DNA of 64,000 bases from Gemmataceae bacterium (lineage in GTDB: Bacteria; Planctomycetota; Planctomycetia; Gemmatales; Gemmataceae): contig SHZZ01000005.1 of the NCBI GenBank assembly GCA_009692005.1, positions 62,001-126,000 of the forward strand. Direction: 5' to 3'. This document shows positions 7,824 through 41,321 of this stretch, piece after piece. Each line of letters opens with the position of its first letter. Positions within the stretch are counted from its first letter, which is position 1. The notes under the pieces are model-generated. The model worked only from the letters and a program-made list of their open reading frames with translations, was not told the origin of the DNA and ran no database searches. The position numbers and the translations under genes are program-made.

Positions 7824-9200
7824 CTAGCCACCCAGCCGGTTTTGCCAGCGGGCTAGTTGCTGAGCCACTTGTTCCGGCGCCGTGGATCCAAACGACCGGA
7901 ACGCTTCCATTGCACGGGAGACTCCTAAAACCTTGTATACCCCGCGGGATAGCCCCGCGACGATTTCTTCATACACTTCCGGCGGCAATTCTCCAAGCCG
8001 GCACCGTTTCTCTTCACACAGCCGGACTAATTTACCAACTGCCTCGTGTGCCTGGCGCATCGGCACACCCTGCTGTATCAAATATTCCATCAAGGTGGTG
8101 GCGTCGAGAAAGCCGTCTTCCAACCGTAAAGCGATGGCCTCGGAGCGGAACCGGGTGCCCTCCACCAGGGGCGCGGCCAGTTCTAACGACGCCGACACCG
8201 TGTCAAAGGCGTCAAAAAGCGCCAACTTGTCTTCCTGCAAGTCGCGGTTGTAAGCCATGGGCAACCCCTTCACCAGCACCATTAAATGCGTCAGGCTGCC
8301 GATCACTCGCGCGGTTTTCCCCCGCATCAGTTCCAGCACATCGGGGTTTTTCTTGTGGGGCATGATGCTCGAGCCGGTGCAAAAGGAGTCCGGCAGTTCA
8401 ATCATGTTGAACTCGGTGGTAGCCCAAAGGACCCACTCCTCGGCCCAGCCGCCCAAATGCAAGGCAATCTGAACCAGGCAGGAAACAAATTCCACCAGGA
8501 AATCGCGGTCGGAGGAGACATCGAGGCTGTTGGCGGCCACGGCGGGAAAACCAAGCTGCCGGGCCACGCTCTCCCGGTCGATGGGAATGCTGGTGCCGGC
8601 CAGCGCCGCCGCCCCCAAGGGAAGCACATTCACCCGCTTGAGGCAATCGTTCAAGCGGTCGGCATCGCGCTGATATTTCTCCACATAGGCGAGAAAGTAG
8701 TGCGCGGCCAGCACCGGTTGGGCCCGCTGCAAATGCGTGTACCCGGGCAAGATCAGTCCTTTTTCTCTCTCGGCTGATTCCACCAAGGCTATTTGCAACT
8801 GCCGAATTTTCTCCAGAAGCAACCCGATGGCCTCGCGCACCCAAAGCTTGACATCAGTAACGATCTGGTCGTTTCGGCTGCGGCCAGTGTGAAGTTTCCT
8901 TCCCACATCTCCCAGCCTCTTGATCAACGCCGACTCCACATGCGTGTGAATGTCTTCCAAGCTTGTGGAGAAAGGAAAAGTTCCCGATTCAATTTCCCTG
9001 GCAATGGCATCGAGGGTTTCGCGGATGGCCTGAGCTTCCTTGGCAGTAAGCAACCCGATTTCCGCCAGCATGGTGGCGTGAGCTTTGCTGGAGAGGATGT
9101 CGTGGCGGTACAGCCGGCGATCGTAACTGATCGACTCGGTATAGGCCTCCACCCGTTTGTCGGTATCCGCGGTAAAGCGCCCACCCCAGGTCTTGCTCAT
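7824..9200 (-). CDS. argH: Argininosuccinate lyase
   Basis: Cleaves argininosuccinate to arginine and fumarate, the last step of arginine synthesis; 458 residues, the normal length of this fumarase/aspartase superfamily member. The family signature [12 protein letters not shown] with the mobile catalytic loop is present, as are TGRSRNDQ and [13 protein letters not shown] with the catalytic His. The start is ATG 9200 ([20 protein letters not shown]), which matches the family N-terminus and has GAGG about nine bases upstream; a frame opening at 9281 would overlap aspS and is not needed. It lies 49 bases after aspS and 76 before lysA, all on the same strand. Confidence 0.96.
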
Positions 9201-9249
9201 AAACAGTTCCCTCAGGAAAAAGGGACAAGGTATTTTAGCACGCCCGGGG

Positions 9250-11058
9250 TTACAGCCCCAGTTCCTTGAGCTGGCGGGCATCGACCGAAGCCGGGGCGCC
9301 CGTCATTAGATCTCGCGCTTTTTGGTTTTTCGGGAAAGCAATGACATCGCGAATATTGGCTGTTCCCGCCAGGATCATGGCCCAGCGGTCGAGACCGAGA
9401 GCTATGCCGCCGTGCGGGGGCGCGCCGTATTTCAAGGCATCGAGCAAAAAGCCAAAGCGATGCCTGGCCTGCTCGGGTGTCATTCCTAAAACGGAAAAGA
9501 GCCTGGCTTGCACTTCCGGGTCATGAATGCGGATGCTGCCGCCGCCGCACTCGTAACCATTAATCACCAGGTCGTAAGCCCGGGCCATGACTGAGCCGGG
9601 ATCAGACTCCAACTTGCCGAGATCTTCTTCCCTCGGCGAGGTGAAGGGGTGGTGGTTGGCCACCCATCTTTTTTCCTCGGCATCAAAGATGAAGGAAGGG
9701 AAATCAACCACCCAGCAAATCTGGTATTGCCCCGATAGGCCATCCAGAAGGCCCAACTGCCTGGCCAGGTGAATTCGCAACGAGCCAAGCGCCTGGGAAG
9801 CAATCTCCTCCTTGTCGGCTACTAGAAGGATCAGGTCGCCATCGACGGCGCCGAGGCGGGCGCGCATTTCTTCCTGCACTTCCTTGGGAATGAACTTTTC
9901 AATCGTGGAAGTGATTTTCCCATTCTCCACCTTCAGCCAGGCCAACCCCTTCCCCCCGCATTGGATCACGAAATCGGAGAGCTTTCCCCCCGGCTTCAGG
10001 TCGGTGTTGGAGAAACGGCCAGCGGCATTCTTGGCGCAGATCCCGCGCAACTTGCCACCGCCTTCCACCGCCTCCTTAAATACACGGAATTCCGTCTTCA
10101 ACCCCAGATCGGTTAAATCCACGATCTCCATGGCAAAGCGCAGGTCGGGCTTGTCGCTGCCAAAGCGCGCCATGGCCTCGGCACAGGTCAGCCGGGTAAA
10201 GGGCCTGGCAATTTTGGCACCAACGCACTTGGCAAAAACCTCCACCGTAAGGCGCTCAATCACTTCCAGGACATCGTCCTGTTTCACGAATGACATTTCC
10301 AAGTCGAGCTGAGTGAACTCCGGCTGGCGGTCGGCGCGCAAATCCTCGTCACGAAGGCAGTGGGCAATTTGATAATACTTGTCGTAGCCGCCAACCATGA
10401 GGAGTTGTTTGTAGATTTGCGGCGACTGCGGCAGGGCAAACCAGGCGCCTGGCCAAACCCGGCTGGGAACCAGGTAATCGCGGGCCCCTTCTGGCGTGCT
10501 GCGGCCCAGCAACGGCGTTTCCAACTCGAGAAACCCATCCCGATCGAGGTAATCCCGGATCACCTTGTTCATGCAATGGCGCATGGCCAAAATTTTCTGC
10601 AAACTTGGCCGCCGTAGATCCAAATATCGGTACTGCAGCCGAATATCCTCACCAGCAATTTCCTCGCCGGGGAACTCCGTCACTTCAAAAGGCGGAGTCG
10701 GGCATTGATTCAAAACGCGTATTTCGCTGGCCAGCACCTCCACCGAGCCGGTGGCGTGATCGAGGTTTTCCTTGCCGGGCAAGCGTGGGCGGACTTTTCC
10801 CAAAACGGCGATGACAAACTCACGGCCGAGTTTTTCCGCAATTTGGAACAAGTCCTTTTGTTGGGAAACCGTGTCCGATTCGAAAACCGCCTGGGTGATG
10901 CCATAGCGGTCGCGCATGTCGACAAAAACCTGCTGGTTGTAGCCGCGCAAGGAATTGACCCAGCCGTTCAAAACCACAGTCTTCCCCGTGTCGGAAACTC
11001 GCAACTCGCCACAATGATGGGTGCGCCGCCAATCACTTTGCAAACTAACCTCGATCAC
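9250..11058 (-). CDS. aspS: Aspartyl-tRNA synthetase
   Basis: Class II aminoacyl-tRNA synthetase charging tRNA-Asp; 602 residues, the bacterial type with an inserted GAD domain. An N-terminal OB-fold is recognised in [20 protein letters not shown]; motif 2 is [18 protein letters not shown]; motif 3 is [16 protein letters not shown]. The start is GTG at 11058 (residues [14 protein letters not shown]), supported by AAAGGA about eight bases upstream. Whether it is discriminating or also charges tRNA-Asn cannot be told safely. It heads the long minus-strand directon and faces the HAD gene across a 153-base divergent intergenic region, where its promoter should lie. Confidence 0.96.
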
Positions 11059-30139: not shown

Positions 30140-31564
30140 ATGAACATGCATTTTGCGACGCGCAACATTCTTTTCGCCTGGTTAGTTTTTTCCTTAAGCA
30201 ACAGCGGGTGCGTGTTGCTGCCAGAAAGTCCAAGGAATGATTTGCCTCCCGCCCTTCTCGTGGAAAAATCTACTGCTCCTACAGCGCAATCCTCCCCATT
30301 GGCTGGTCAACCCTCAATCAATGCCGCCTCTCCGGAAGAAACTGGCGCACCGGGTAAAACCCCCGCTTTCCTCAATTTGAAACAACTCACTCCTGAGGAA
30401 CTGGTCCGCGAAGTTTTGAATCGAAACCCAACCCTGGCAGCCATGACCGCGGCCACTGAAGCTGCCAAGGCGCGTTTTCCCCAGGTTATTTCCCTCGATG
30501 ACCCCAATCTGGCAGCCTGGATGGCGCCTGGCTCTTTCGGATCCAACCAGGTCAACCCGGCACTGCGCTTCGAATTTAGCCAAAAGATTCCTGCCCGAGG
30601 TAAGCGACAGCTTCGCGGTGAAATGGCACAAGCCGAGGCCGGGATCGCTGAACAAGAATTGGAATCCGCCAAGCTGGAACTCATTGAGGAATCCCGCTAC
30701 GCGTTTCTCGACCTTTACCTGGTGGAGCGGAACATCGAAGTTAATGACGAAACTTTGAAACTGTTGAACGATTTCCGGCAAAACGCGGAAACCCGTTACC
30801 GCAACGGTCAGGCGCCTCAGCAGGATGTCTTGCAAGCCGAGGTGGAAATTGGCTTGCTAAAAGAAAAGGCCATTATCAATTACCGAGTGCGCAAGGTAGC
30901 CCGGGCGCGAATTAACACCTTGCTGCATTTGGAACCCGATCTACCCTTGCCTGCCCCGCTCAAGGAATTGGAATTTTCAAAAGAGTCGCGTTCCAGCGGC
31001 AGCTTGCGGCAAGAAGCGGGAAACCAGAGGCCGGACTTGAAAGGGCTGAAGGAAAAAATCCGCCTGGATGAAGCTGCGCTGCAACTTGCCCGCAGGGAGT
31101 TTTCGCCTGATTACGAAACCATGGCCGCCTATGACAGCTTTTGGCAAGGGATGGACAAGCAATTGCAGTTTCAATTAGGGGTTAAGTTGAATTTGCCGGC
31201 CAGGAGAGACCGGCGGTTTGCCGCCGTTTCTGAAGCCCAATACCGCCTGGCCCAGAAAAAAGCGGAATTCAATCTGTTGGAAGACAAAATAAATTTTCAG
31301 GTTCAGGAAGCCTACGAGCAGATTATGGAAAGTGAACAAATCCTCAATTTGTTTAAAACAGTAACCCTTCCCGCAGCCAGCGCCAATGTCCGCGAGGCGC
31401 AGGCGACATACATCAATGGCAAAATTCCCTTTTTGACACTCATTGCCGCGCAAAAGGAACAGACCATGGCCCGCGAGCGCTACTTTCTCTCTCAAGCCGA
31501 GGCTCTTCGCAGAAAAGCCGCCCTTTCACGGGTCATCGCCGCCAGTGCAGCCCAACTTCCTTGA
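30140..31564 (+). CDS. TolC/CusC-like outer membrane efflux lipoprotein
   Basis: Outer-membrane channel of a tripartite efflux pump, 474 residues. The signal peptide ends in a lipobox-like LSNSGC with Cys24 as the likely lipidation site. Long helices typical of the TolC tunnel follow: QKIPARGKRQLRGEMAQAEAG, then FRQNAETRYRNGQAPQQDVLQAEVEIG and a second repeat with FQVQEAYEQIMESEQIL and YINGKIPFLTLIAAQKE. It lies tail-to-tail with the CusA-like permease, 52 bases apart, so it is on the same locus but a separate transcript, unlike classic cusCFBA operons. It probably forms the exit duct for that pump. Confidence 0.88.
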   Translation: MNMHFATRNILFAWLVFSLSNSGCVLLPESPRNDLPPALLVEKSTAPTAQSSPLAGQPSINAASPEETGAPGKTPAFLNLKQLTPEELVREVLNRNPTLAAMTAATEAAKARFPQVISLDDPNLAAWMAPGSFGSNQVNPALRFEFSQKIPARGKRQLRGEMAQAEAGIAEQELESAKLELIEESRYAFLDLYLVERNIEVNDETLKLLNDFRQNAETRYRNGQAPQQDVLQAEVEIGLLKEKAIINYRVRKVARARINTLLHLEPDLPLPAPLKELEFSKESRSSGSLRQEAGNQRPDLKGLKEKIRLDEAALQLARREFSPDYETMAAYDSFWQGMDKQLQFQLGVKLNLPARRDRRFAAVSEAQYRLAQKKAEFNLLEDKINFQVQEAYEQIMESEQILNLFKTVTLPAASANVREAQATYINGKIPFLTLIAAQKEQTMARERYFLSQAEALRRKAALSRVIAASAAQLP

Positions 31565-31616: not shown

Positions 31617-34600
31617 TCAACCCTCCTTCACCCCGTGAATTTTCAACCACCTGGCCCGCCGGACCCAGAAAAAGCGGACCGGCAAAAACAAATCCACCAC
31701 TTCATCCGAGATCAGCAACCCGCCCAGCACGGGCAAGGCCATCGGCGCCAAGATTTCCGCCCCCACTCCCTGGGCAAAGACCATGGGGAAAATCGCCAGG
31801 ATAGCAACCCCTTCTGTCAATAATTTGGGCCGCAAGCGGTGGACCGCTCCTTCCAGGACCGCCGTCCGTAATTCCTCCAGTGATGCAATATTTTCCAGTC
31901 CGCCCCGCCGTTCAATCGCTTCGCGAAGATAAACCATCATAATGATCCCCGTCTCAGCAGCCATGCCAAAGCAAGCAATGAATCCCACCCACACAGCCAC
32001 GCTGAAATCGTAAGGAGGGGTGTCCCATCCAAATTGAATCTTGGGGAAGAAAAAGAGAAAGAAGGCGCCGCCCGCCAAAGCCTCGGGCAGGGCCATCAGG
32101 ATGAGAATAGCATCCATCCAATCCCGGTAGGTCAGGTAAAGGATGATCAGGATTACGAGCACCACGGCGGGGAAAGCCAGAAGCAGAGTTCGCGATGCCC
32201 GCAATTGGTGCTCGAATTCCCCGCTCCATTCTAAATGGTAACCCTCCGGCATGGACACCTTTTGCTCCACCACCCGCCTGGCCTCCTCAATGAAGCCCAC
32301 CATGTCGCGACCGCGGACATTTAAGGTAACCGCGTTCATGAGCTGGCCATTTTCGCTTTTGATCATCGCCGGCCCCTCGGTCGTGCGAATATCTGCAAAG
32401 GCCTCCAGGGGGATGAAGCGTTTGTTCCCGGGCATATGTCCGGGGCCAACCTTGTGAATATTTCCTGGCGGCATGGCCCGGCTCAAGGGTTCGATCTCCA
32501 CCCCGGAGTTGCTGGAGCGGGCTCCCGCCACCAGCAGCCTGCGCACCGTGTTTTCATCCTCCCTTTCCACGCGGGAATAGCGGATGCGCACGGGGAAGCG
32601 CTCTCTTTTTTCCACAGTTTGCGTGACCACGCGTCCGCCAATGGCAGTTTCAATTTCCACCTGGGCATCTTCCACGCTGACGCCAAACTGCGCCGCCTTC
32701 TCCCGGTGGATCTCGATCTCCAGGTAACCCTTTCCCATAATGGGGGCAGCCACGACATCGCGGGCCCCGCGCACTCCCTTGACCGCGCTTTCCACTTCCT
32801 TGCACAGCCGGTCAATCTTTTCCAGATCGGGGCCAAACACCTTGATCCCCACATCGGTGCGCACCCCGGAAGAAAGCATTTCAATCCGGTTGATGATGGG
32901 CTGGGTAAAGATGTTGCTCCAGCCGGGGACTTGCAGCACCCTGCCCATCTCATCATCCACGAGATCGCCTTTGGGCCCGCCCTGCCTTTTCCACAACAGG
33001 ACCCAGGTTTGAAATTCCTTCTCCATTTTTTCTCTGGCCTGGGCAAATTCCGGCGCCATCTTCCTGTCGGCTTGCCTTTCTAATCGCTCAAGCAAATCTG
33101 CTTCCAGCAAGTCGTTAATCTGCTGGCTTTTATCCCCGGCCGGCATAGCGCCCAGGTTTCGCGCACCAGACAGAATTTCCACCATGGCCAGCCAGGTAAA
33201 AGCGCCCGTGCCCTGGAAAAACAGTTCCCGATCGAGTTGGGCAACGCCAAGGGTGAAGAATTGATCGCGCACGGATTCAACCCGCAAGGCAATTCGGCCG
33301 GCCAGACTTTTGGCCCGACCTGAACTTATTTCTTGCAGGAATTCCCAAGGGCCCGGCTTGATTTTTAACGCGGCGGCCGGGTCGACAAGCCATTTCCGGT
33401 TGGCCATTTCCTCGGCCAGCCCGCGCAACTGCTTTTCCAATTCCCCCAAGGAAACCTCTTGCGTCAGCGCCTTGCCGAACCCCGGCGCCAACGATTTTTC
33501 CAGTTCTTTCTCCATTTCAGAATCCAGGTTGCCTTTTGGCCCCTGCCAAAGCGGCGCTTTCTGAAATTGCTGCCAGGCCTGCTCGAGGAACGACCGGCTC
33601 AACACCGATGCCAGGTCCTGTTCCATTTCCAAAAAGCGGGTGGATGCCAGTTCCCGCTGGCCTTCATCAAACCGTTCCAGCGCCTTTTGCGCCGCTTCCA
33701 CCAGAAGGTTGGATCGGGAATCGGCGTCAGGAAATCGCGAAAGCATTCCAAGCCGTTCCATTTCATGGAGGATGGCGGTGGCTTGCTTGAGGGCATCGGG
33801 GTACTTCATCACCCGCTTGGGCCAAAACTCCTTGGGGCGGAAATTGACAAAGGTCTCCACCATGTCCAATGGCGCCGGGTCGGTTGGCGTGTCGGCACGG
33901 CCAGCCTTGCCCACCACGCTTTCCACTTCGGGAAAGCCGCGCAACAAAGCATTGCGGGCTTTCAAATCATCGCTGGCCTGGGTGACGCTGGCACGGGGAA
34001 CTGTGATGGGCATATCCAGGGTCGTGCCCTCATCCAGGGCCGGCATGAAGGCCACGCCAATTTTCGGAAAATCACTGGCGTGCAAGGCCAGGGCAATCAA
34101 GGTGACCAGTGCCAACACTTGCTGAATGAAACCCCGCGTCGCCAAGGTGGTAATGGTAATCACCAGCGCCACGACGCCGAGGAACATGCCCTTCCAGGCA
34201 GTTTCCGAAGCGCCCAATCCGACCAGGGCCTGCAAGGGAAAGATTCCCGCCGCCAGAATTAGCAGGACGGAAAAAAGCCACATGACCAGGTTTCTGCGCG
34301 GAAGGAACCAAGAGAGAAACGGCCGGTAGATATTGATGAAGCTTCTTACAATCCAGTTCTCTTCCTCGGAATAGAGCCGACCCTTGATGAAATAAGGAAT
34401 GAGAGCGGGCACCAGAGTCACGGAAATCAGGGCGGTTCCAATCAGAGCGAAACTTTTCGTAAAGGCCAGCGGATGAAACAGCTTTCCTTCCCTTCCCGTC
34501 AAAAGAAAAACCGGGATGAAAGAAAGGAGCATGATCAGCACGGAGAAAAAGATCGGTCGACCGACCATGAGACAGGCCGGCAGAACCAGCTCCCGAATGT

Positions 34601-35903
34601 CCCCCGTCACTGGCTGATCGCCAAACTTTTTCTTCAATTGATGCGTGGCATTTTCCACCATGACGATGGCCTGGTCCACCAGCACGCCGATGGAAATTGT
34701 GATTCCCGCCAGGGACATGATGTTGGCTTGAATATCCAGGATTCCCAAGACTCGCAGAGCCCACATCAGGCCAAAGGAAAACAAGACCGACAGGGGAAGG
34801 GTAACGCAAATGACAAAGACGCTGCGGATGTGACCGAGGATGAGCAGGATGGCCACGCCAGCGATGACCATTTCATGCCACATGACATTGGTCAGGGTGC
34901 GGATGGCGCCTTCGATTAAGCGGGTGCGGTCATAAGCGGGAACAATGCGCACACCTGGAGGAAGGCTGGGGGTGATTTCGCGGATTTTCTCTTTCACCCG
35001 CGAGGTAATGGCCATGGGGTTTTCCCCATGGCGCATGAGGACCACCCCGCCGACCACTTCCGAGCCATTTTTTTCAAACACTCCCCTGCGGAAACGCGTT
35101 CCCAACTGCACCGTGGCCACCGTGCGGACATAGATCGGCACTCCGTCGATTGCCTTGATGACAATGTTTTCGATGTCTTCCTTGCCGCGAATCCAGCCAA
35201 TGCCGCGAACAATGAACTCGGCTTGGTTTTTCTGAATAACTCCGCCCCCTGCCGGCTGATTCCCCCGCGACACCGCTTCGAACAATTCGCCCAGGGTGAT
35301 GCCATAAGCCCGCAAGCTCTCCGGCTGCACATCAACCTGATACTCCAACGGCATGCCACCGACGCTGGCAACTTCGGCCACGCCCCCCGTGGCGTTGATC
35401 TGCGGCGCCACGAAAAACTTGTTCAACGCCCACAAGCGCGAGGGGTCGACCGGCGCCCCAGGTGAGGGTTCAATCGTGTACCAGAAGATCTGGCCCAGGG
35501 CGGTGGCGTCTGGCGCCAGGTAGGGGATTACTCCAACCGGAAAACTTCCAGGCGATTCCACCAGCTTTTCCAGCACCCGTTGTCGGGCAAAGTAAAATGG
35601 CGTCTTGTCCTCAAAGATCACCGTGATCATGCAGAAATTGAATTCCGACGAAGATCGGATAGTGCGCACGCCGGCCAATCCTTGCAACTTTCGCGACAGC
35701 GGATAGGTCACCTGGTCTTCGATTTCTCTCGGGCTTCTGCCCGGCCAGTCGGCGAAGACGATCACCTGGTTCTCGCTCAGGTCAGGAATGGCGTCCACAG
35801 GCGTTTGAAAAGCCGACCACGCCCCCCACAGGGACACCGCCACCGCCAGCAGGATCACCAGAAAAGGATTACGAATGGAGAATTCAATCCATTTTGAAAT
35901 CAT
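31617..35903 (-). CDS. CusA/CzcA-type heavy-metal RND permease with a large insert
   Basis: Inner-membrane proton-driven exporter of the HME-RND family, 1428 residues against about 1040-1070 usually. The N-terminal NPFLVILLAVAVSLWGAWSAF, DAIPDLSENQVIVFADWPG, and the proton-relay helix VDQAIVMVENATHQL (Asp410, Glu417) are of Cu/Ag-pump type. The extra length comes from two places: residues ~537-610 hold three hydrophobic segments where about one is expected, and residues ~715-985 are a charged helical insert before the conserved PGWSNIFTQPIINRIEMLSSG. After that the porter and membrane parts resume normally. Its start overlaps the adaptor stop by four bases. Metal specificity is not proven. 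Confidence 0.9.
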   Translation of the reverse strand: MISKWIEFSIRNPFLVILLAVAVSLWGAWSAFQTPVDAIPDLSENQVIVFADWPGRSPREIEDQVTYPLSRKLQGLAGVRTIRSSSEFNFCMITVIFEDKTPFYFARQRVLEKLVESPGSFPVGVIPYLAPDATALGQIFWYTIEPSPGAPVDPSRLWALNKFFVAPQINATGGVAEVASVGGMPLEYQVDVQPESLRAYGITLGELFEAVSRGNQPAGGGVIQKNQAEFIVRGIGWIRGKEDIENIVIKAIDGVPIYVRTVATVQLGTRFRRGVFEKNGSEVVGGVVLMRHGENPMAITSRVKEKIREITPSLPPGVRIVPAYDRTRLIEGAIRTLTNVMWHEMVIAGVAILLILGHIRSVFVICVTLPLSVLFSFGLMWALRVLGILDIQANIMSLAGITISIGVLVDQAIVMVENATHQLKKKFGDQPVTGDIRELVLPACLMVGRPIFFSVLIMLLSFIPVFLLTGREGKLFHPLAFTKSFALIGTALISVTLVPALIPYFIKGRLYSEEENWIVRSFINIYRPFLSWFLPRRNLVMWLFSVLLILAAGIFPLQALVGLGASETAWKGMFLGVVALVITITTLATRGFIQQVLALVTLIALALHASDFPKIGVAFMPALDEGTTLDMPITVPRASVTQASDDLKARNALLRGFPEVESVVGKAGRADTPTDPAPLDMVETFVNFRPKEFWPKRVMKYPDALKQATAILHEMERLGMLSRFPDADSRSNLLVEAAQKALERFDEGQRELASTRFLEMEQDLASVLSRSFLEQAWQQFQKAPLWQGPKGNLDSEMEKELEKSLAPGFGKALTQEVSLGELEKQLRGLAEEMANRKWLVDPAAALKIKPGPWEFLQEISSGRAKSLAGRIALRVESVRDQFFTLGVAQLDRELFFQGTGAFTWLAMVEILSGARNLGAMPAGDKSQQINDLLEADLLERLERQADRKMAPEFAQAREKMEKEFQTWVLLWKRQGGPKGDLVDDEMGRVLQVPGWSNIFTQPIINRIEMLSSGVRTDVGIKVFGPDLEKIDRLCKEVESAVKGVRGARDVVAAPIMGKGYLEIEIHREKAAQFGVSVEDAQVEIETAIGGRVVTQTVEKRERFPVRIRYSRVEREDENTVRRLLVAGARSSNSGVEIEPLSRAMPPGNIHKVGPGHMPGNKRFIPLEAFADIRTTEGPAMIKSENGQLMNAVTLNVRGRDMVGFIEEARRVVEQKVSMPEGYHLEWSGEFEHQLRASRTLLLAFPAVVLVILIILYLTYRDWMDAILILMALPEALAGGAFFLFFFPKIQFGWDTPPYDFSVAVWVGFIACFGMAAETGIIMMVYLREAIERRGGLENIASLEELRTAVLEGAVHRLRPKLLTEGVAILAIFPMVFAQGVGAEILAPMALPVLGGLLISDEVVDLFLPVRFFWVRRARWLKIHGVKEG

Positions 35904-37642
35904 GGCTGGCTTCCCCCCTTGGGTTTTTCCTTGCTCTTGGCCTTCAGTTCCTTCACCCGTTGCAGGGATTTCGCTTGGTTGGCTTTGGCATCATCCTGGC
36001 AGCCATCGCAGCAAACAAAAACCGGCTGACTTTCCAGCATTAACTTGATGGGCACGCCCATGGAACCCAGGCGAGATTTTTCCTGAATGACGCACAAACC
36101 CTGCTCCTTGGCCAGGGCGCGATCGGCAGGGGAAAGTTTGGCCAGGTTGGCAGCAATGGTTGCTTCTTCGTCGCTTGGCGTTGTGGGCCGAACATTGGCC
36201 GCGGGCTTGCCCCCGCTGCCCCCAAAGTAAATGGAACCCAAGGCCGGGTTCAACCGAGTTTCCGCATCGACCAGGAACGCCCCCTGCGTCACCAATTCCT
36301 CCCCTTCCTTCAACCCGGAATAAACGGGAAAGGCGAATTGGCCGTCGGGGAGTTTCATGCGCGGGCCGAGTTCCACCGCCACCCCCAGGAATACCCCGGG
36401 CGATTCCTGTTTGTAGACGACTTTTCGCGAGCCAGTGTCGATGACGCAGTCTTCGGGTATGGCCAGAAATTTTTCCCCGCGCGATTGCAAGGGAAAGAGC
36501 GGCTTGGCATCGGGCTTTTTCAGCCCGGCCAGATCCTTGGCGTCCATTTCCAATTGCACCTGCATGGTCATGCCCGGGCGCAACTGGTTGCCTGGGTTGT
36601 CCATTTCAAAGCGAACCGAGAGAGTCCGGCTTTCCTGATCGACATGAGGATAGATAAAGGAAAGAACGCCCTGGAATTTTTCCCCCGGCCAGGCGCGAGT
36701 GGTGGCCGTCACTTTCCATCGCCCGGAGTTCCCCAGGCTCATGCTTTCTTTGCCGTTCTTGTGGCCAGCGGGCGTGAAAAAACCGAGCTCATCCTCGTAA
36801 AGTTGGGCCAGAATCCACACTTTTTCCAGGTTGGCCACATCATATAGGGGCGCGCCTTCCTCCAAGTATTGCCCCTCTTTGGCAAACTTGCGGATCACAT
36901 GCCCGGTGATCGGGGAGCGAATGGCAATACGATGAGTGGGCATGCCGCCACGCAGGATTTTTTCGATTTCCTCCGGGGCGATGCCCCAAAGCTCCAGCCT
37001 TTCCCTGGCGTTCTTTTCCAAGAAAGGATTGCCATTCTTTTTCGCGTCCAAGAGATTCTGGGCGGTCACGGCCATGTCGGGGCTGTAAAGCACTGCCAGC
37101 TCATCTCCCTGATGAACCATTTGCCCGGTTTGATTGACCAGCAGTTTTTCAATCCGGCCTTTTACCCGAGCGGCCACTTGCTTCAACTCTCGTTCATCGA
37201 ACTCCACGGTACCCACGGTTTGGATGGACTTAACCAAGGGGACATAAGACACCGCGCGGGTGCGCACCCCCGCCAGCACCATGCGGTAAGGGGTCAGTTG
37301 CACGCGGCTAACCGCACCCGGGGGCAGGGCCTCCCCCTTGCCAGCCCCTTGCTTCCTTTTGCTCAGCCCCATGAAGCAAATCGGGCACTTGTCGGTTTTT
37401 TTCGATGACACCACGGTCGGGTGCATGGGGCAGAAGTATTCAAAGCCATCGCCCGCGGTTTCCCCGGCTTGGCTTTTCCATCCCCATTTTTCCTTCAACG
37501 ACAGGAGCGTTTCCCACTTGGCCAAGGCCAGGCCAATAATGCCCAGCAGGAAGACAAATCTTAAGCGGGCCAACGGCGTCAGCACCAGCAAACGGAACAA
37601 GCCAATCCGAGCAGAAGGTATTTCCCCTTTAGAATTACTCAT
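35900..37642 (-). CDS. CusB-like RND periplasmic adaptor with terminal metal-binding domains
   Basis: Membrane-fusion protein of 580 residues linking the permease to the outer-membrane channel. A membrane anchor lies near residues 15-45. Residues ~67-95 form a heavy-metal-binding domain: EYFCPMHPTVVSSKK with KCPICFMGL. The lipoyl/barrel adaptor core follows (ELKQVAARVKGRIEKLLVNQ, VPLVKSIQTVGTVEFDE, GHVIRKFAKEGQYLEEG). The last ~70 residues add another cysteine-bearing segment, VFVCCDGCQDDAKANQ, resembling a YHS-type metal domain. Start is ATG 37642; a TTG at 37654 adds four residues. Its stop overlaps the permease start (ATGA type), so the two are coupled. Confidence 0.88.
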   Translation of the reverse strand: MSNSKGEIPSARIGLFRLLVLTPLARLRFVFLLGIIGLALAKWETLLSLKEKWGWKSQAGETAGDGFEYFCPMHPTVVSSKKTDKCPICFMGLSKRKQGAGKGEALPPGAVSRVQLTPYRMVLAGVRTRAVSYVPLVKSIQTVGTVEFDERELKQVAARVKGRIEKLLVNQTGQMVHQGDELAVLYSPDMAVTAQNLLDAKKNGNPFLEKNARERLELWGIAPEEIEKILRGGMPTHRIAIRSPITGHVIRKFAKEGQYLEEGAPLYDVANLEKVWILAQLYEDELGFFTPAGHKNGKESMSLGNSGRWKVTATTRAWPGEKFQGVLSFIYPHVDQESRTLSVRFEMDNPGNQLRPGMTMQVQLEMDAKDLAGLKKPDAKPLFPLQSRGEKFLAIPEDCVIDTGSRKVVYKQESPGVFLGVAVELGPRMKLPDGQFAFPVYSGLKEGEELVTQGAFLVDAETRLNPALGSIYFGGSGGKPAANVRPTTPSDEEATIAANLAKLSPADRALAKEQGLCVIQEKSRLGSMGVPIKLMLESQPVFVCCDGCQDDAKANQAKSLQRVKELKAKSKEKPKGGSQP

Positions 37643-37729
37643 GGCATCCCCCAAAATATTGGAAAACAGTTGCAGAAATAATTAACAGAGCTTTAAAGAA
37701 AGCGTCAGGCGAGGTTTTTAAAGGAGGGA

Positions 37730-38194
37730 TTAAATGGTGAAACGACAAAGAAGGACTGGCAAATCAACTTTGGCTCCGAGGTCAGGAGCAAAAGCAAACG
37801 GCCTTGAATGGCCGGATACTTTTTCTTCCAGGGAAGCGAAACTATACGGGGCGGAAGATGCCTGGACCCCCTTGGAAGCCTTGGTTCCCGGTTCAATCGG
37901 CAGGGGGCAATTACCGGGGGCAGGCCCGGGCTGGTACCAGCATTGGCAACTTAGTCCGCGAAGCTGATCTTCTGGCGAGGAATTGCGGATTTCATCCTCA
38001 ACGGCGCAAGCGCAACCGTCCACAGTTTCGCAAGATCCGCAACAACCTGAGGCGCCGGAAACTTGAACGCTATTCGAGGTGCATGGGCATGGGCATGGGC
38101 AGGCAAAAACCGGGATGGCCAGGTTTCCAAGCATGCTGAGGCAGGCCAGTAATACCACGATCCACTTGGACCGTTTGCGAGAAAATAACTTCAT
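37730..38194 (-). CDS. Small Cys-rich secreted protein at the head of the metal-export operon
   Basis: A 154-residue protein I do not recognise. A basic start (MKLFSRKRSK), a hydrophobic segment and AIPVFACPCPCPC suggest a signal peptide with cleavage near residue 30. The mature part has 13 cysteines: the alternating CPCPCPC (32, 34, 36, 38), CCGSC (51, 52, 55), CAC (61, 63), CQC (83, 85), 96 and 150. This resembles soft-metal-binding sequences rather than an enzyme. It ends 87 bases before the CusB-like gene on the same strand, which suggests a periplasmic metal sponge or chaperone. The start is ATG 38194; an in-frame TTG at 38230 lies in the likely promoter. Function is inference from composition and context. 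Confidence 0.6.
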   Translation of the reverse strand: MKLFSRKRSKWIVVLLACLSMLGNLAIPVFACPCPCPCTSNSVQVSGASGCCGSCETVDGCACAVEDEIRNSSPEDQLRGLSCQCWYQPGPAPGNCPLPIEPGTKASKGVQASSAPYSFASLEEKVSGHSRPFAFAPDLGAKVDLPVLLCRFTI

Positions 38195-38200
38195 AATCAA

Positions 38201-38230
38201 ATGGTAGGTGTTAAACCCTCCCCTGGTCAA
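38201..38230 (-). promoter_or_regulatory. Possible promoter of the metal-export operon
   Basis: TTGACC (38230-38225) and TACCAT (38206-38201) on the minus strand, 18 bases apart. The -10 is only six bases before ATG 38194, which would make the transcript nearly leaderless. Visual match only. Confidence 0.25.
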
Positions 38231-39002
38231 GCCAGAAAGGGAAAGGATTTCAAGAAAGCCCTGGAAAAAACCTCAAAACCGTCGCAATTAGAACATTGCA
38301 AATCAGCTTCTGGCGCCATTTTAAGCGGGCGGCTTGGGGGCAGGCGTTAGCTGACTATATTTTTACCTGTTTGGGAATCTTAATAATCCCTATAAACGCA
38401 TGCCAACCACAACGGGTCAATCCCCTTGCCCGCTGGCCATCAATCCATCCATTCCAGGTTTTCGTATAATCCCCTCGGCGAATGGATGGGAAAAAGTGAG
38501 GAGGCTGGGTTTGATTTTTTCGGCAATTTTTGTTTTTCCAACACATTGGAACCAAGTCTGCTCAGCTTGGGTAATTATTGGATGCTTTGCCATTGTCTTG
38601 TCGCCCATTATTCCCGCGGATAATTTTTTCGTCCTGGCCGAAATCGAGGGATTCCCGTCCTCCCCAATTTCGGAACCGGATGGAGAATCTTGCGAAATGC
38701 CCTTGTCCAGGGCAAACCATGGCACATTCAAAAGCAGTTCCCATCGAATTCAGTTAAAGCTTTCGGGGTTTATTTTTACTCAAGCGAAATCCTCACCCAA
38801 AGGTTCACCCCTCTCTTCTCAAGCTGCAAGCATTTTCACTTTCCCAATGCGCTGTTAATAACACTTTGAAGCGTAAAGGTTTTCAATCCAGGCCTGGGAA
38901 AAGGGTTCCAATGGCGTGGATTAAATGCGCCAAGCCAAACATTTTTCTTAAAGATTCACTTTGAAATATCCCTGGGGCAGAGCATTGGAAGGCAGCCAAT
39001 CC
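38231..39002 (+). other. Long intergenic region without a convincing gene
   Basis: About 770 bases, with the divergent Cys-rich gene to the left and the SulP fusion to the right, so both promoters should lie here. Two overlapping frames on opposite strands (38400-38858 plus, 38417-38731 minus) were considered. Neither shows a known motif or good ribosome-binding site; the plus one has a hydrophobic stretch around its residues 35-75 and could be a small membrane or secreted protein. I see no RNA gene or tandem repeat. Confidence 0.4.
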
Positions 39003-41321
39003 ATGAATGGAAATCCGAGAAAACTTGCCGCGATCGCCAAGGACCTAAGCGCTGGCACGGCGGTTTTTCTGGTGGCATTGCCACTTTGCCTTGGGATTGC
39101 CCTGGCTTCGGATGCCCCGCCCATTGCAGGGATTTTTACCGGAATTGTGGGGGGAATCCTGGTCGGCCTGTTCAGCGGATCCCATACCAGTGTCAGCGGC
39201 CCCACCGCAGGCCTTACCGCCGTTGTTGCTTTACAGATTAAGGAACTCGGAAGTTTCGAAGGGTTTTTACTGGCCTTGGCGTTTGCTGGAATACTTCAGA
39301 TCGTCCTTGGGCTTTTGCGCTCTGGAATCCTGGGCTACTTCTTCCCCTCAACCGTAATCAAAGGCTTGCTGGCAGCCATTGGCATAATTCTGATCCTCAA
39401 GCAACTTCCCCATGTACTCGGGCACGATTTCGACCCAGAAGGTGAGATGTCGTTTTTTCAACCGGACAAAGAAAACACCTTTTCGGAAATTGTTGCCATG
39501 GTATTCCACCATCATTCCGGGGCGGCAATGATAGGCTTGGCCTCGGTTTTCCTGCTGATTGTTTGGGACAAATGGAGCCTGCTCAAGAATTCAGCAATTC
39601 CAGTGCCACTGGTTGTCGTGGTATTAGGAATTGCAGCCAAGGTTATCATGGATTGGTTCGGAGGCTCCCTGGCGGTAAGCGGCAGCCACCTTGTGAAGGT
39701 GCCCGTGGTGGAAGGCCCAGGGGAATTTACCAAGCTTTTTATGCTTCCTGATTTTTCTCTGTGGAAAAACCCAGCGATTTACTCTGCCGGTTTAATTCTG
39801 GCCTTGGTGGCTTCACTTGAGACTTTGTTGAATTTGAAGGCTGTGGACAAGTTGGATTCCCAGCAACGCACTTCCCCGCCGGACCGCGAACTCTTGGTCC
39901 AAGGCGCGGGGAACTTTCTTCTGGGGTTAATCGGAGGAATTCCCATGACCTCCGTCATTGTACGCAGTTCGGTCAATATCAACGCCGGGGCACAAACCAG
40001 GATTTCGACAATTTTCCACGGCGCTCTTCTGCTGGTATCCGTGGTTTTCTTTTCCGGTTTTCTCAACCAAATTCCACTTTCCTGCCTGGCAGCGATTCTC
40101 CTGGTCACGGGTATCAAGCTGGCCAGTCCCAGCTTGGTCAAGCAAATGTGGAACGAGGGGCGATACCAGTTCATTCCCTTTTCCATAACCGTTGGCGCCA
40201 TCATTTTCACCGATCTCTTGACTGGAATCCTGATTGGGTTGGTAGCCAGCACCACCTTTATTCTGAGCAGCAATCTACGGTGGCCGCTAAATCGAGTGAT
40301 GGAAAAACACCTGGGTGGAGAGGTCTTGCATATTCAATTGGCCACCCAGGTCAGCTTTTTCAACAGGCCGGCATTGGACCGAACCTTGCGCGAGGTTCCC
40401 CGCGACGGGCATGTTCTTATCGACGCAAGCAACACCGACTACATCGATCCAGACATTCTCGACCTGATCCGGGAATTCAAGGAAGTGATCGCGCCAGCGC
40501 ATGGGGCGCAAGTCAGCCTGCGCGGTTTCCGCGAGAAATACCAATTGCAAGACGAGATTCAATTTGTCGATTATTCAACACGGGAATTGCAAGAAAAACT
40601 CACAGCGGCCCAGGTTTTACAAATCCTGCAAGAAGGCAATGCGCGTTTCCGCGCTGGAAAGAAGCTCACCCGGGACTTCGGCAGGCAACTCGATGCGGGA
40701 ACCCGCGGGCAGCACCCCCTGGCTGTCATTCTGAGTTGCATCGATTCACGATCACCTGCGGAATTGATTTTTGATCTCGGACTGGGTGACATCTTCAGCG
40801 TCCGCATCGCCGGAAATGTGGTTAGCAATAATATTCTTGCCAGCATGGAGTATAGCTGCGCAGTGGCGGGCGCCAAGCTAATCCTGGTGGTAGGGCATTC
40901 GAAATGCGGGGCAGTCACCGCGGCGGCCGACCTGGCATGCTCCGGCCTCAATCCGGAAATTGCAACCGGCTGCCAACACATGGGCCATATTGTCACCCAG
41001 ATTCAGACAGTAATCGATGAGCCAACCCGGGAACAGCTCGCCTCCTCCCTTGGGGATGACAAGTCAGCCCTTGTGGACGAAATTGCCCGGAGGAATGTCT
41101 TACGCATTGGCATGCAAATTGTCATCCAGAGTAAAACAATTCAGCGGCTGATTCGCGAAGGCCAGATTTCCCTGGCCACCGCCTTTTACAATATCACCAC
41201 AGGGGAAATGGAAATTTTGTCCGGGCCAATGGAACTGGCCGACCTGGAACCCCTGTTGGAGTCACAAACACATTCACTTGAAAAACCCATGGCTGACGCG
41301 GGGGATTCAATGCACCTGTGA
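39003..41321 (+). CDS. SulP-family anion transporter fused to beta-carbonic anhydrase
   Basis: A 772-residue inner-membrane protein. Residues ~15-425 are the SulP transporter: ALPLCLGIALASDAPPIAGIFTG, the SGSHTSVSGPTAGLTA motif, and NFLLGLIGGIPMTSVIVRSS. A short STAS-like part follows (~430-525). Residues ~535-740 are a beta-class carbonic anhydrase with AVILSCIDSRSPAELIF (Cys579, Asp581, Arg583) and VVGHSKCGAV (His632, Cys635), the complete zinc set. It likely takes up bicarbonate (BicA-like) and equilibrates it with CO2 at the membrane. ATG 39003 is preferred to TTG 38961. It stands alone; its neighbour downstream is convergent. Confidence 0.93.
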   Translation: MNGNPRKLAAIAKDLSAGTAVFLVALPLCLGIALASDAPPIAGIFTGIVGGILVGLFSGSHTSVSGPTAGLTAVVALQIKELGSFEGFLLALAFAGILQIVLGLLRSGILGYFFPSTVIKGLLAAIGIILILKQLPHVLGHDFDPEGEMSFFQPDKENTFSEIVAMVFHHHSGAAMIGLASVFLLIVWDKWSLLKNSAIPVPLVVVVLGIAAKVIMDWFGGSLAVSGSHLVKVPVVEGPGEFTKLFMLPDFSLWKNPAIYSAGLILALVASLETLLNLKAVDKLDSQQRTSPPDRELLVQGAGNFLLGLIGGIPMTSVIVRSSVNINAGAQTRISTIFHGALLLVSVVFFSGFLNQIPLSCLAAILLVTGIKLASPSLVKQMWNEGRYQFIPFSITVGAIIFTDLLTGILIGLVASTTFILSSNLRWPLNRVMEKHLGGEVLHIQLATQVSFFNRPALDRTLREVPRDGHVLIDASNTDYIDPDILDLIREFKEVIAPAHGAQVSLRGFREKYQLQDEIQFVDYSTRELQEKLTAAQVLQILQEGNARFRAGKKLTRDFGRQLDAGTRGQHPLAVILSCIDSRSPAELIFDLGLGDIFSVRIAGNVVSNNILASMEYSCAVAGAKLILVVGHSKCGAVTAAADLACSGLNPEIATGCQHMGHIVTQIQTVIDEPTREQLASSLGDDKSALVDEIARRNVLRIGMQIVIQSKTIQRLIREGQISLATAFYNITTGEMEILSGPMELADLEPLLESQTHSLEKPMADAGDSMHL

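Follow-up and report, generated by a model that had tools for sequence, protein, structure and literature searches.

The pump gene and its surroundings

In the window (the whole stretch of 64,000 nucleotides that was analysed), a gene for a heavy-metal RND pump is found on the minus strand, a strand that the preliminary description had not given (Table 1). Assignment to the CusA/CzcA family is based on the TIGR00914 (HME-RND) model, which was matched with 905 bits at a cut-off of 701. The gene adjoins a tripartite RND gene set of adaptor and outer-membrane factor, and the same set occurs in many relatives. The adaptor belongs to HlyD_D23 and its stop codon overlaps the pump start. Small Cys-rich proteins are likewise encoded upstream of the adaptor in most of the inspected relatives. 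ORFs of 1761–2117 aa at L145 and L144 could suggest a gene fusion, which was discarded as their extra length is merely reading frame that happens to be open ahead of the pump start.

The methionine triad M631/M681/M1009 and E683 are kept in all insert-bearing pumps (55/55). The proton relay D405/E939/K984 of CusA corresponds to D410/E1317/K1360 in the window protein, with the equivalences of E1317 and K1360 placed by motif. D410 occurs in 54/54 and K1360 in 50/50 of the rows with a residue at that position, and E1317 in most (44). The intact state of metal site and proton relay is evident from the sequence, and we take the pump for an intact CusA-type exporter driven by protons, whose most likely substrate is Cu(I)/Ag(I). 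The transmembrane and upper Met relay of CusA (M391-M1009, M403-M486, M410-M501, M271-M755) is not kept. Among the positions compared, only the equivalents of M391 and M410 are Met, while M403, M486, M501, M271 and M755 are replaced by L, L, I, F and V, respectively.

Besides the insert described below, the pump contains two extra pieces that the preliminary description had overlooked. The predicted transmembrane pair after TM7 is absent from CusA and independent of the insert, and the loop further downstream is rich in Met, Ser, Gly and His in relatives.

Table 1. Positions in the window of the pump gene, its parts and the neighbouring genes.
Feature	Residues (aa)	Position	Strand	Basis
TolC-like outer-membrane factor (OEP family), convergent with pump gene		30140..31564	+	
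CusA/CzcA-family heavy-metal RND pump with insert	1428 aa	31617..35903	-	
Extra low-complexity loop	1126-1160	32424..32528	-	
M1009 (CusA M672), periplasmic metal site, 31 residues past insert	1009	32877..32879	-	
Insert between β3 and α2 of porter subdomain PC1, 282 aa	697-978	32970..33815	-	alignment gap and predicted structure
Conserved base, C-terminal half: proximal helix B, near-invariant E893, two helices back to PC1	888-967	33003..33242	-	
Variable distal arm and head	760-887	33243..33626	-	
Conserved base, N-terminal half: short helix and proximal helix A, invariant D746 and R750	701-759	33627..33803	-	
M681 (CusA M623), periplasmic metal site; E683 (CusA E625) follows	681	33861..33863	-	
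M631 (CusA M573), periplasmic metal site	631	34011..34013	-	
Extra predicted TM helix pair after TM7	555-610 (approx.)	34074..34241	-	
CusB-like adaptor, N-terminal HMBD and C-terminal CCxGC domain		35900..37654	-	
Small Cys-rich protein, hydrophobic N-terminal segment, upstream of adaptor		37730..38230	-	

Position and predicted structure of the insert

An extra insert of about 260 residues at approximately 715–985 had been proposed for this pump. Its existence is borne out by the alignment to CusA and by its recurrence in dozens of independent genomes, where it can be aligned over its full length; with this recurrence, chance can be excluded. Its limits had to be revised to a longer segment that begins further towards the N-terminus (Table 1). 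The end of the FVNFRPKEFWPKR block falls on aa 697 or shortly ahead of it, and the PGWSNIFTQPII... block begins at about aa 993. The alignment to solved CusA (4dnr/3t51) breaks at query residue 695 (chain 644) and resumes at 979 (chain 649). CusA has four residues at this site (native 638–641), and ordinary CusA relatives have 20–60. The insert comprises 40 K+R and 43 D+E, one His and no Cys, in accordance with the charged character described earlier. Internal duplication as its source was rejected, since the BLAST self-matches that link the insert to the following segment are weak (best E about 0.02) and find no support in the predicted structure, which is all-helical for the arm and α/β for the porter.

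For the insert, AlphaFold2 predicts two antiparallel helices that form an arm of about 80 Å length, topped by a small helical head (pLDDT 84, pTM 0.74). The long helices A and B comprise aa 727–781 (55 residues) and aa 867–916 (50 residues) in this model. In a larger model the same helices are obtained at pLDDT of about 90, with an overall pTM of 0.58 and modest confidence for PC1. Here the PC1 strands with helix α1 (17–78) are followed by the insert helices (91–357) and α2 (367–379), and the predicted splice site β3-X-α2 agrees with the place where the CusA alignment breaks. The almost wholly helical nature of the insert and its location in the periplasmic porter domain, both anticipated in the preliminary description, are thus supported by the model, and the location, in subdomain PC1, also by the CusA alignment. 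For the non-insert part of the model, CusA and ZneA were the best structure matches (nine top rows, Z 11.5–12.7). The hydropathy periodicity of both long helices is best at 3.9 residues, which points to amphipathic helices and is too imprecise for naming a coiled-coil type.

The insert is absent from classic RND pumps, in line with the preliminary description. Comparison with Pfam and NCBIfam gave scattered weak matches only, with no Pfam family common to the members. No relative was found in the PDB and no description in the literature searched. As to a known fold, the best Foldseek match had an E of 0.33, and VIA Z values of at most 5.6 are meaningless for long helices. No listed fold match is hence available for the arm, which is no proof of a new fold.

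The predicted shape recalls MmpL5, whose C-terminal porter domain carries an inserted antiparallel coiled coil of 196 aa that is essential and was modelled as a 13-nm tube (PMC12501195). The arm helices of the window pump are similar in type, so that the arms of three protomers might join as a periplasmic tube or collar, extending or replacing part of the adaptor conduit. We consider such an assembly quite improbable. The splice is β3-X-α2 of PC1 here, in contrast to β2-X-β3 in MmpL and HpnN (PMC8277102). By topology, the ferredoxin-like fold puts these two loops at opposite ends, the splice of the window pump being at the end where β1 leaves the membrane. Furthermore, genes for a CusB-like adaptor and a TolC-like factor are present, some members can dispense with the outer arm, and there is no Met enrichment of the kind that lines the MmpL5 lumen.

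Distribution and selection

In a tree computed without the insert residues, 49 insert-bearing planctomycete pumps form one clade (SH-aLRT 100), all members of which carry the insert (49/49). The preliminary description had named absence from close relatives, or a common neutral extension of planctomycete RND pumps, as findings that would speak against a special insert. As for the former, the insert is present in every pump found at about 57% core identity or above as well as throughout the clade. As for the latter, it is common in one lineage, yet has invariant residues and dN/dS values of 0.13–0.44, compared to 0.02–0.13 for the core, where dS was measurable; for the window gene against its nearest relative (L153), dN/dS is saturated. 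Judging from these ratios, the insert evolves fast, several-fold above the core, under purifying selection. Many planctomycete genomes and CusA pumps are without the arm, from which it follows that metal export in itself does not require it.

The insert site has been lengthened repeatedly, with 42–61 residues in many ordinary pumps and separate inserts of 134–180 residues in Poribacteria and L171. The inserts of L106 and L171 show no detectable relation to that of the window (E 0.09 and 0.18), while those of L125 and L078 are weakly related (E 9e-6 and 3e-5 in a ten-sequence search), the L078 alignment being out of register. Homology to the window insert is likely only for L125, and via L125 for L078. 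The inserts of Poribacteria at this site are shorter than that of the window, to which one pair of them is weakly related.

Repeated lengthening of the site, the rapid change and a head and outer arm that come and go among members would suit a tolerated, lineage-specific extension, grown at a loop that takes extra residues with little damage, with a weak, mostly structural role in stability, crowding or spacing. However, the clade retains the insert without exception, D746, R750 and E893 show no or almost no variation, and dN/dS is well below 1. This explanation therefore appears unlikely, with an appreciable chance left to it.

Conserved base and variable outer arm

D746 and R750 were found in 51/51 and E893 in 50/50 of the rows. 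The conserved positions of helix A (48–72) and helix B (192–217) come to lie at overlapping levels if the helices pair in an antiparallel manner. Outer arm and head are missing in L074, L168 and L055, and the base is kept in these headless members.

Two strongly hydrophobic stretches of 19 residues each (KD mean 2.2–3.1) are present in the heads of L148 and L150, and at least one in that of L149. Together with a splice site at the membrane-facing end of PC1, as deduced from topology, these stretches would fit an arm acting as a tether, with a head for anchoring to, or sensing, the inner membrane or one of its proteins. Such a role is improbable, as the window protein and most members lack any strongly hydrophobic, TM-like stretch.

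The preliminary description had also suggested metal binding by the insert. The short distance to the M672-equivalent ligand, 31 residues past the insert, and the Cys-rich proteins upstream of the adaptor in most inspected relatives could point to an insert that binds or relays Cu/Ag, or takes metal from the Cys-rich protein. The composition argues against this: inserts contain 0.11% Cys and 1.19% Met, whereas the pump core has 0.41% and 2.98%. None of the Cys, His or Met residues of the insert is invariant across the family members, so that conserved ligands like those of HMBD, YHS or other metal-binding domains are lacking. In the column of Q739, about half of the family has Met, and most other members have Gln. 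Metal binding is unlikely because the insert is poor in Cys and Met, and we regard the whole reading as very improbable.

Proposed role of the arm

We tentatively favour, at a chance just short of even, an accessory arm that braces the pump-adaptor contact and biases the PC1/PC2 cleft in a pump of the Cu(I)/Ag(I) type. PC1 of a CusA-type exporter would have gained an accessory domain, a rigid arm of two antiparallel helices that ends in a head and is rooted between β3 and α2. The base, whose conservation, like the clade-wide retention of the insert, is read from aligned sequences, would pack on PC1 and the neighbouring adaptor. It may bias the cleft via the directly following α2 and the helix of the Met672 equivalent. 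The variable outer arm and head could provide lineage-specific contacts with the adaptor, the membrane surface or another envelope protein. We infer bracing, cleft coupling and partner contact from this arrangement. PC1 is the docking subdomain of the adaptor's membrane-proximal domain, and the CusB termini touch the PC1/PC2 cleft (PMC6975555); M672 of CusA moves on metal binding (PMC8092243). The insert would lie beside the metal-entry cleft and the face on which the adaptor docks. Due to its position at the adaptor-docking PC1, contact of the insert with the adaptor is plausible. Extra adaptor domains were rejected as its partner, since such features do not follow the insert: adaptors of insert-less pumps, too, can have additional domains, either C-terminal or inserted.

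In a wider version, the arm at β3-X-α2, a splice site for which no description exists in other RND pumps, would represent an undescribed domain family, with a base that locks adaptor and cleft and a head that extends to the inner membrane or to a partner of its own, resulting in a regulated or tethered, planctomycete-specific tripartite pump. This is rather unlikely, although to be taken seriously.

Comparison with known pumps

CusA from E. coli (PDB 3k07, 3ne5, 4dnr) shares family, porter fold, metal triad with E625 and proton-relay equivalents with the window pump. The latter differs in the PC1 insert of 282 residues, the TM pair, the loop at aa 1126–1160 and L, L and I in place of M403, M486 and M501. 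ZneA and CzcA, HME-RND pumps for Zn and divalent cations, have the same fold, and ZneA is among the best structure matches. The window pump differs from them in having the methionine triad of CusA, to judge from the alignment with CusA, and in an insert with which the ZneA chain does not align.

In MmpL4 and MmpL5 the C-terminal porter domain likewise has an insert of long antiparallel helices (PMC12501195), but it is spliced between β2 and β3 (PMC8277102) instead of β3 and α2, and they have an MmpS partner and no CusB/TolC set. A search with the insert profile against PDB sequences matched no MmpL chain; coiled coils diverge fast. HpnN, a hopanoid RND transporter of the HAE-3 type, also has helical inserts (PD3/PD4) in its porter subdomains (PMC8277102), but differs in its β2-X-β3 splice, lipid substrate and dimeric state, and is not an HME pump.

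A review describes PC1 as an uninterrupted fold, with PN1 and PC1 of RND pumps continuous and inserts only after β2. With its confidently predicted arm between β3 and α2 of PC1, the planctomycete CusA-type lineage would break this fixed RND architecture. The arm would offer a testable natural variant for the coupling of adaptor docking to the PC1/PC2 metal cleft, and could serve as a marker domain by which to tell apart a pump subfamily now filed simply as CusA/CzcA.

Insert and Predicted Structure

The pump matches the heavy-metal RND family TIGR00914 (CusA/CzcA) with 905 bits (cut-off 701), and among solved structures it is most closely related to chains of E. coli CusA. Since the CusA alignment breaks off past query residue 695 (chain 644), to restart at residue 979 (chain 649), the insert could be delimited as listed in the Table. 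It contains 40 K+R, 43 D+E, one His and no Cys. The extra charged insert claimed in the preliminary description is thus real; its boundaries had been placed about 15 residues off, and its strand had gone unstated.

Table. Coordinates of the pump gene, its additions and its neighbours.
Feature	Nucleotides	Strand	Residues	Remark
Pump gene	31617-35903	minus	1428 aa	CusA/CzcA-family heavy-metal RND
Insert	32970-33815	minus	697-978	282 residues; site at CusA native residues 638-641
Insert helix			701-717	insert-alone model
Insert helix A			727-781	55 aa; insert-alone model
Insert head			795-861	several short helices; insert-alone model
Insert helix B			867-916	50 aa; insert-alone model
Insert helix			924-940	insert-alone model
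Insert helix			951-967	insert-alone model
Helix pair after TM7	34074-34241		~555-610	hydrophobic, predicted TM pair
Low-complexity loop	32424-32528		1126-1160	C-terminal porter/docking region
Outer-membrane factor gene	30140-31564			convergent with pump gene
Adaptor gene	35900-37654			overlaps pump start
Small Cys-rich ORF	37730-38230
Transporter-like ORF	38961-41321	plus	786 aa	translation, read by eye, resembles a SulP-type anion transporter/beta-carbonic anhydrase-like fusion

Prediction of the insert alone (13 sequences; protein number = model + 687) gave pLDDT 84 and pTM 0.74. The helices recur with pLDDT ~90 in a model of porter region plus insert (23 sequences), the porter part being weaker (pTM 0.58); its ~250-280 non-insert residues align best to CusA/ZneA (nine top rows, Z 11.5-12.7). 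The elements follow in the order beta1, alpha1, beta2, beta3, insert, alpha2, which would place the splice at beta3-X-alpha2 of the porter subdomain PC1. In a ferredoxin-like topology the beta3-alpha2 loop would sit at the end where beta1 exits the membrane.

Two further additions compared to CusA, unmentioned in the preliminary description, were observed. The TM pair after TM7 is lacking in CusA, and in L065, L066 and L071 (L-numbers denote loci of relative pumps in other genomes) four extra predicted TM helices appear instead of two; such helices would give 14- or 16-TM RND pumps. The pair is independent of the insert, since it occurs alone in the planctomycete pumps L174-L180 and the insert alone in L073, L089 and L144. 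The low-complexity loop spans ~15-75 residues rich in Met, Ser and Gly, with some His, in relatives (L070, L073, L124), and is possibly a flexible metal-binding loop.

Pump Type and Gene Neighbours

The periplasmic copper ligands of CusA, M573, M623, E625 and M672 (PMC8092243), correspond to M631, M681, E683 and M1009, kept in 55/55 insert-bearing pumps; D405, E939 and K984 correspond to D410, E1317 and K1360. In the CusA alignment the transmembrane Met relay is not conserved (L, L and I at M403, M486 and M501), and the M271 and M755 positions hold F and V. Judged from its sequence, the pump is, apart from the additions, a normal CusA-type exporter, whose substrate would most naturally be of the Cu(I)/Ag(I) type, taken from the periplasm.

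The adaptor ends in a CCxGC domain (VFVCCDGC), present in two or three copies in several relatives (L064, L065, L067, L070); L073, L075, L078, L089, L114 and L125 instead carry HMBD-like CPMHP...CGM repeats between the beta-barrel and membrane-proximal parts. Small Cys-rich ORFs stand upstream of the adaptor gene, no more than ~1.7 kb away, in about eight of ten relatives inspected (L064, L066, L067, L068, L070, L071, L148, L149). Several of these ORFs have hydrophobic N-termini; as a group they are too divergent for tblastn.

Distribution and Conservation

A search with the insert alone revealed relatives in 19/59 related genomes; a profile search was positive in 42/95 same-family genomes and in 23/392 spread across the phylum. 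Among the best 80 matches kept from a named-genome scan with pump-core patterns, which leaves room for rare cases in other phyla, the long insert on named contigs (L064-L073, L089) is planctomycete in every case. Close relatives do not lack it, a point the preliminary description had raised: in related genomes every pump at least ~57% identical to the window protein carries the insert, and those ~34-40% identical have ordinary slot lengths. The slot measures 20-61 residues in ordinary CusA relatives and mostly 199-379 in the clade, with L074 (146) and L075 (118) as short outliers.

A quick tree of the core without insert columns, with some long branches, united 49 insert-bearing planctomycete pumps in a single clade (SH-aLRT 100, insert in 49/49). 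The Poribacteria that bear an insert (L078, L125) are placed elsewhere, as is the pair L106/L171, so the insert label changes three times. These four loci, Poribacteria and one planctomycete, carry further inserts, 134-180 residues long and again at this site in PC1, mostly with no detectable similarity to the window insert; the site resembles a hot spot for insertions.

D746 and R750 (helix A) are identical in 51/51 sequences and E893 (helix B) in 50/50; R756 and E759 are kept in most, and the column of residue 896 holds Asp in 44, but Phe in the window protein. If A and B run antiparallel, their conserved stretches (model 48-72 and 192-217) would be level and R756 opposite E893, consistent with salt bridges between the helices in the lower arm half. 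L074, L168 and L055 retain the base of the arm and have no outer arm or head. In L071 (insert 8223-9356) the helix-A motif SLLNDxTQxxLxxFDExxRxLALRR stands in tandem copy, which suggests arm growth through duplication.

Close pairs with measurable dS gave dN/dS of 0.13-0.44 for the insert vs 0.02-0.13 for the core; by these sequence comparisons the insert is constrained, yet several-fold less tightly than the core. Taken with its retention in every clade member, this speaks against a free neutral extension, and we regard even a weakly functional one as unlikely. The pattern fits a scaffold and a partner-binding surface equally well. Strongly hydrophobic stretches occur in the head in three genera (two in L148 and L150, one in L149); an arm tethering the pump to the membrane or a partner seems quite improbable.

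Proposed Function and Comparison with Known Systems

Metal binding by the insert, considered in the preliminary description, is very unlikely because over the clade Cys (0.11% vs 0.41%) and Met (1.19% vs 2.98%) are depleted compared to the core and no Cys, Met or His is invariant in the insert alignment; His is equal in both. The reading we favour, tentatively and short of calling it probable, is that the contact between pump and adaptor is braced by the rigid base, which would also bias the PC1/PC2 cleft; outer arm and head would supply lineage-specific contacts. The membrane-proximal domain of the adaptor docks on PC1, and the termini of CusB extend to the PC1/PC2 cleft (PMC6975555); the insert would lie in that docking region, next to the cleft. 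On Cu(I) binding, PC2 swings away from PC1, and M672 changes position (PMC8092243). By sequence, the arm runs C-terminally into alpha2, with the M672 equivalent 31 residues on.

No family in Pfam or NCBIfam covers the insert, solved sequences and fold comparisons gave no convincing match covering it, and our literature search found no paper describing it. The kind of pump is known; the insert-bearing form is a new variant. The nearest analogue is the coiled-coil insert of MmpL5, which is essential for efflux (PMC12501195); splice position and partners differ, and an MmpL5-like tube formed by the arms has slim prospects. A review presents PN1 and PC1 as continuous folds, with MmpL, HpnN, SecDF and MacB following a general expansion pattern at beta2-X-beta3 (PMC8277102), whereas the window pump would be expanded, according to the model, at beta3-X-alpha2 of PC1.
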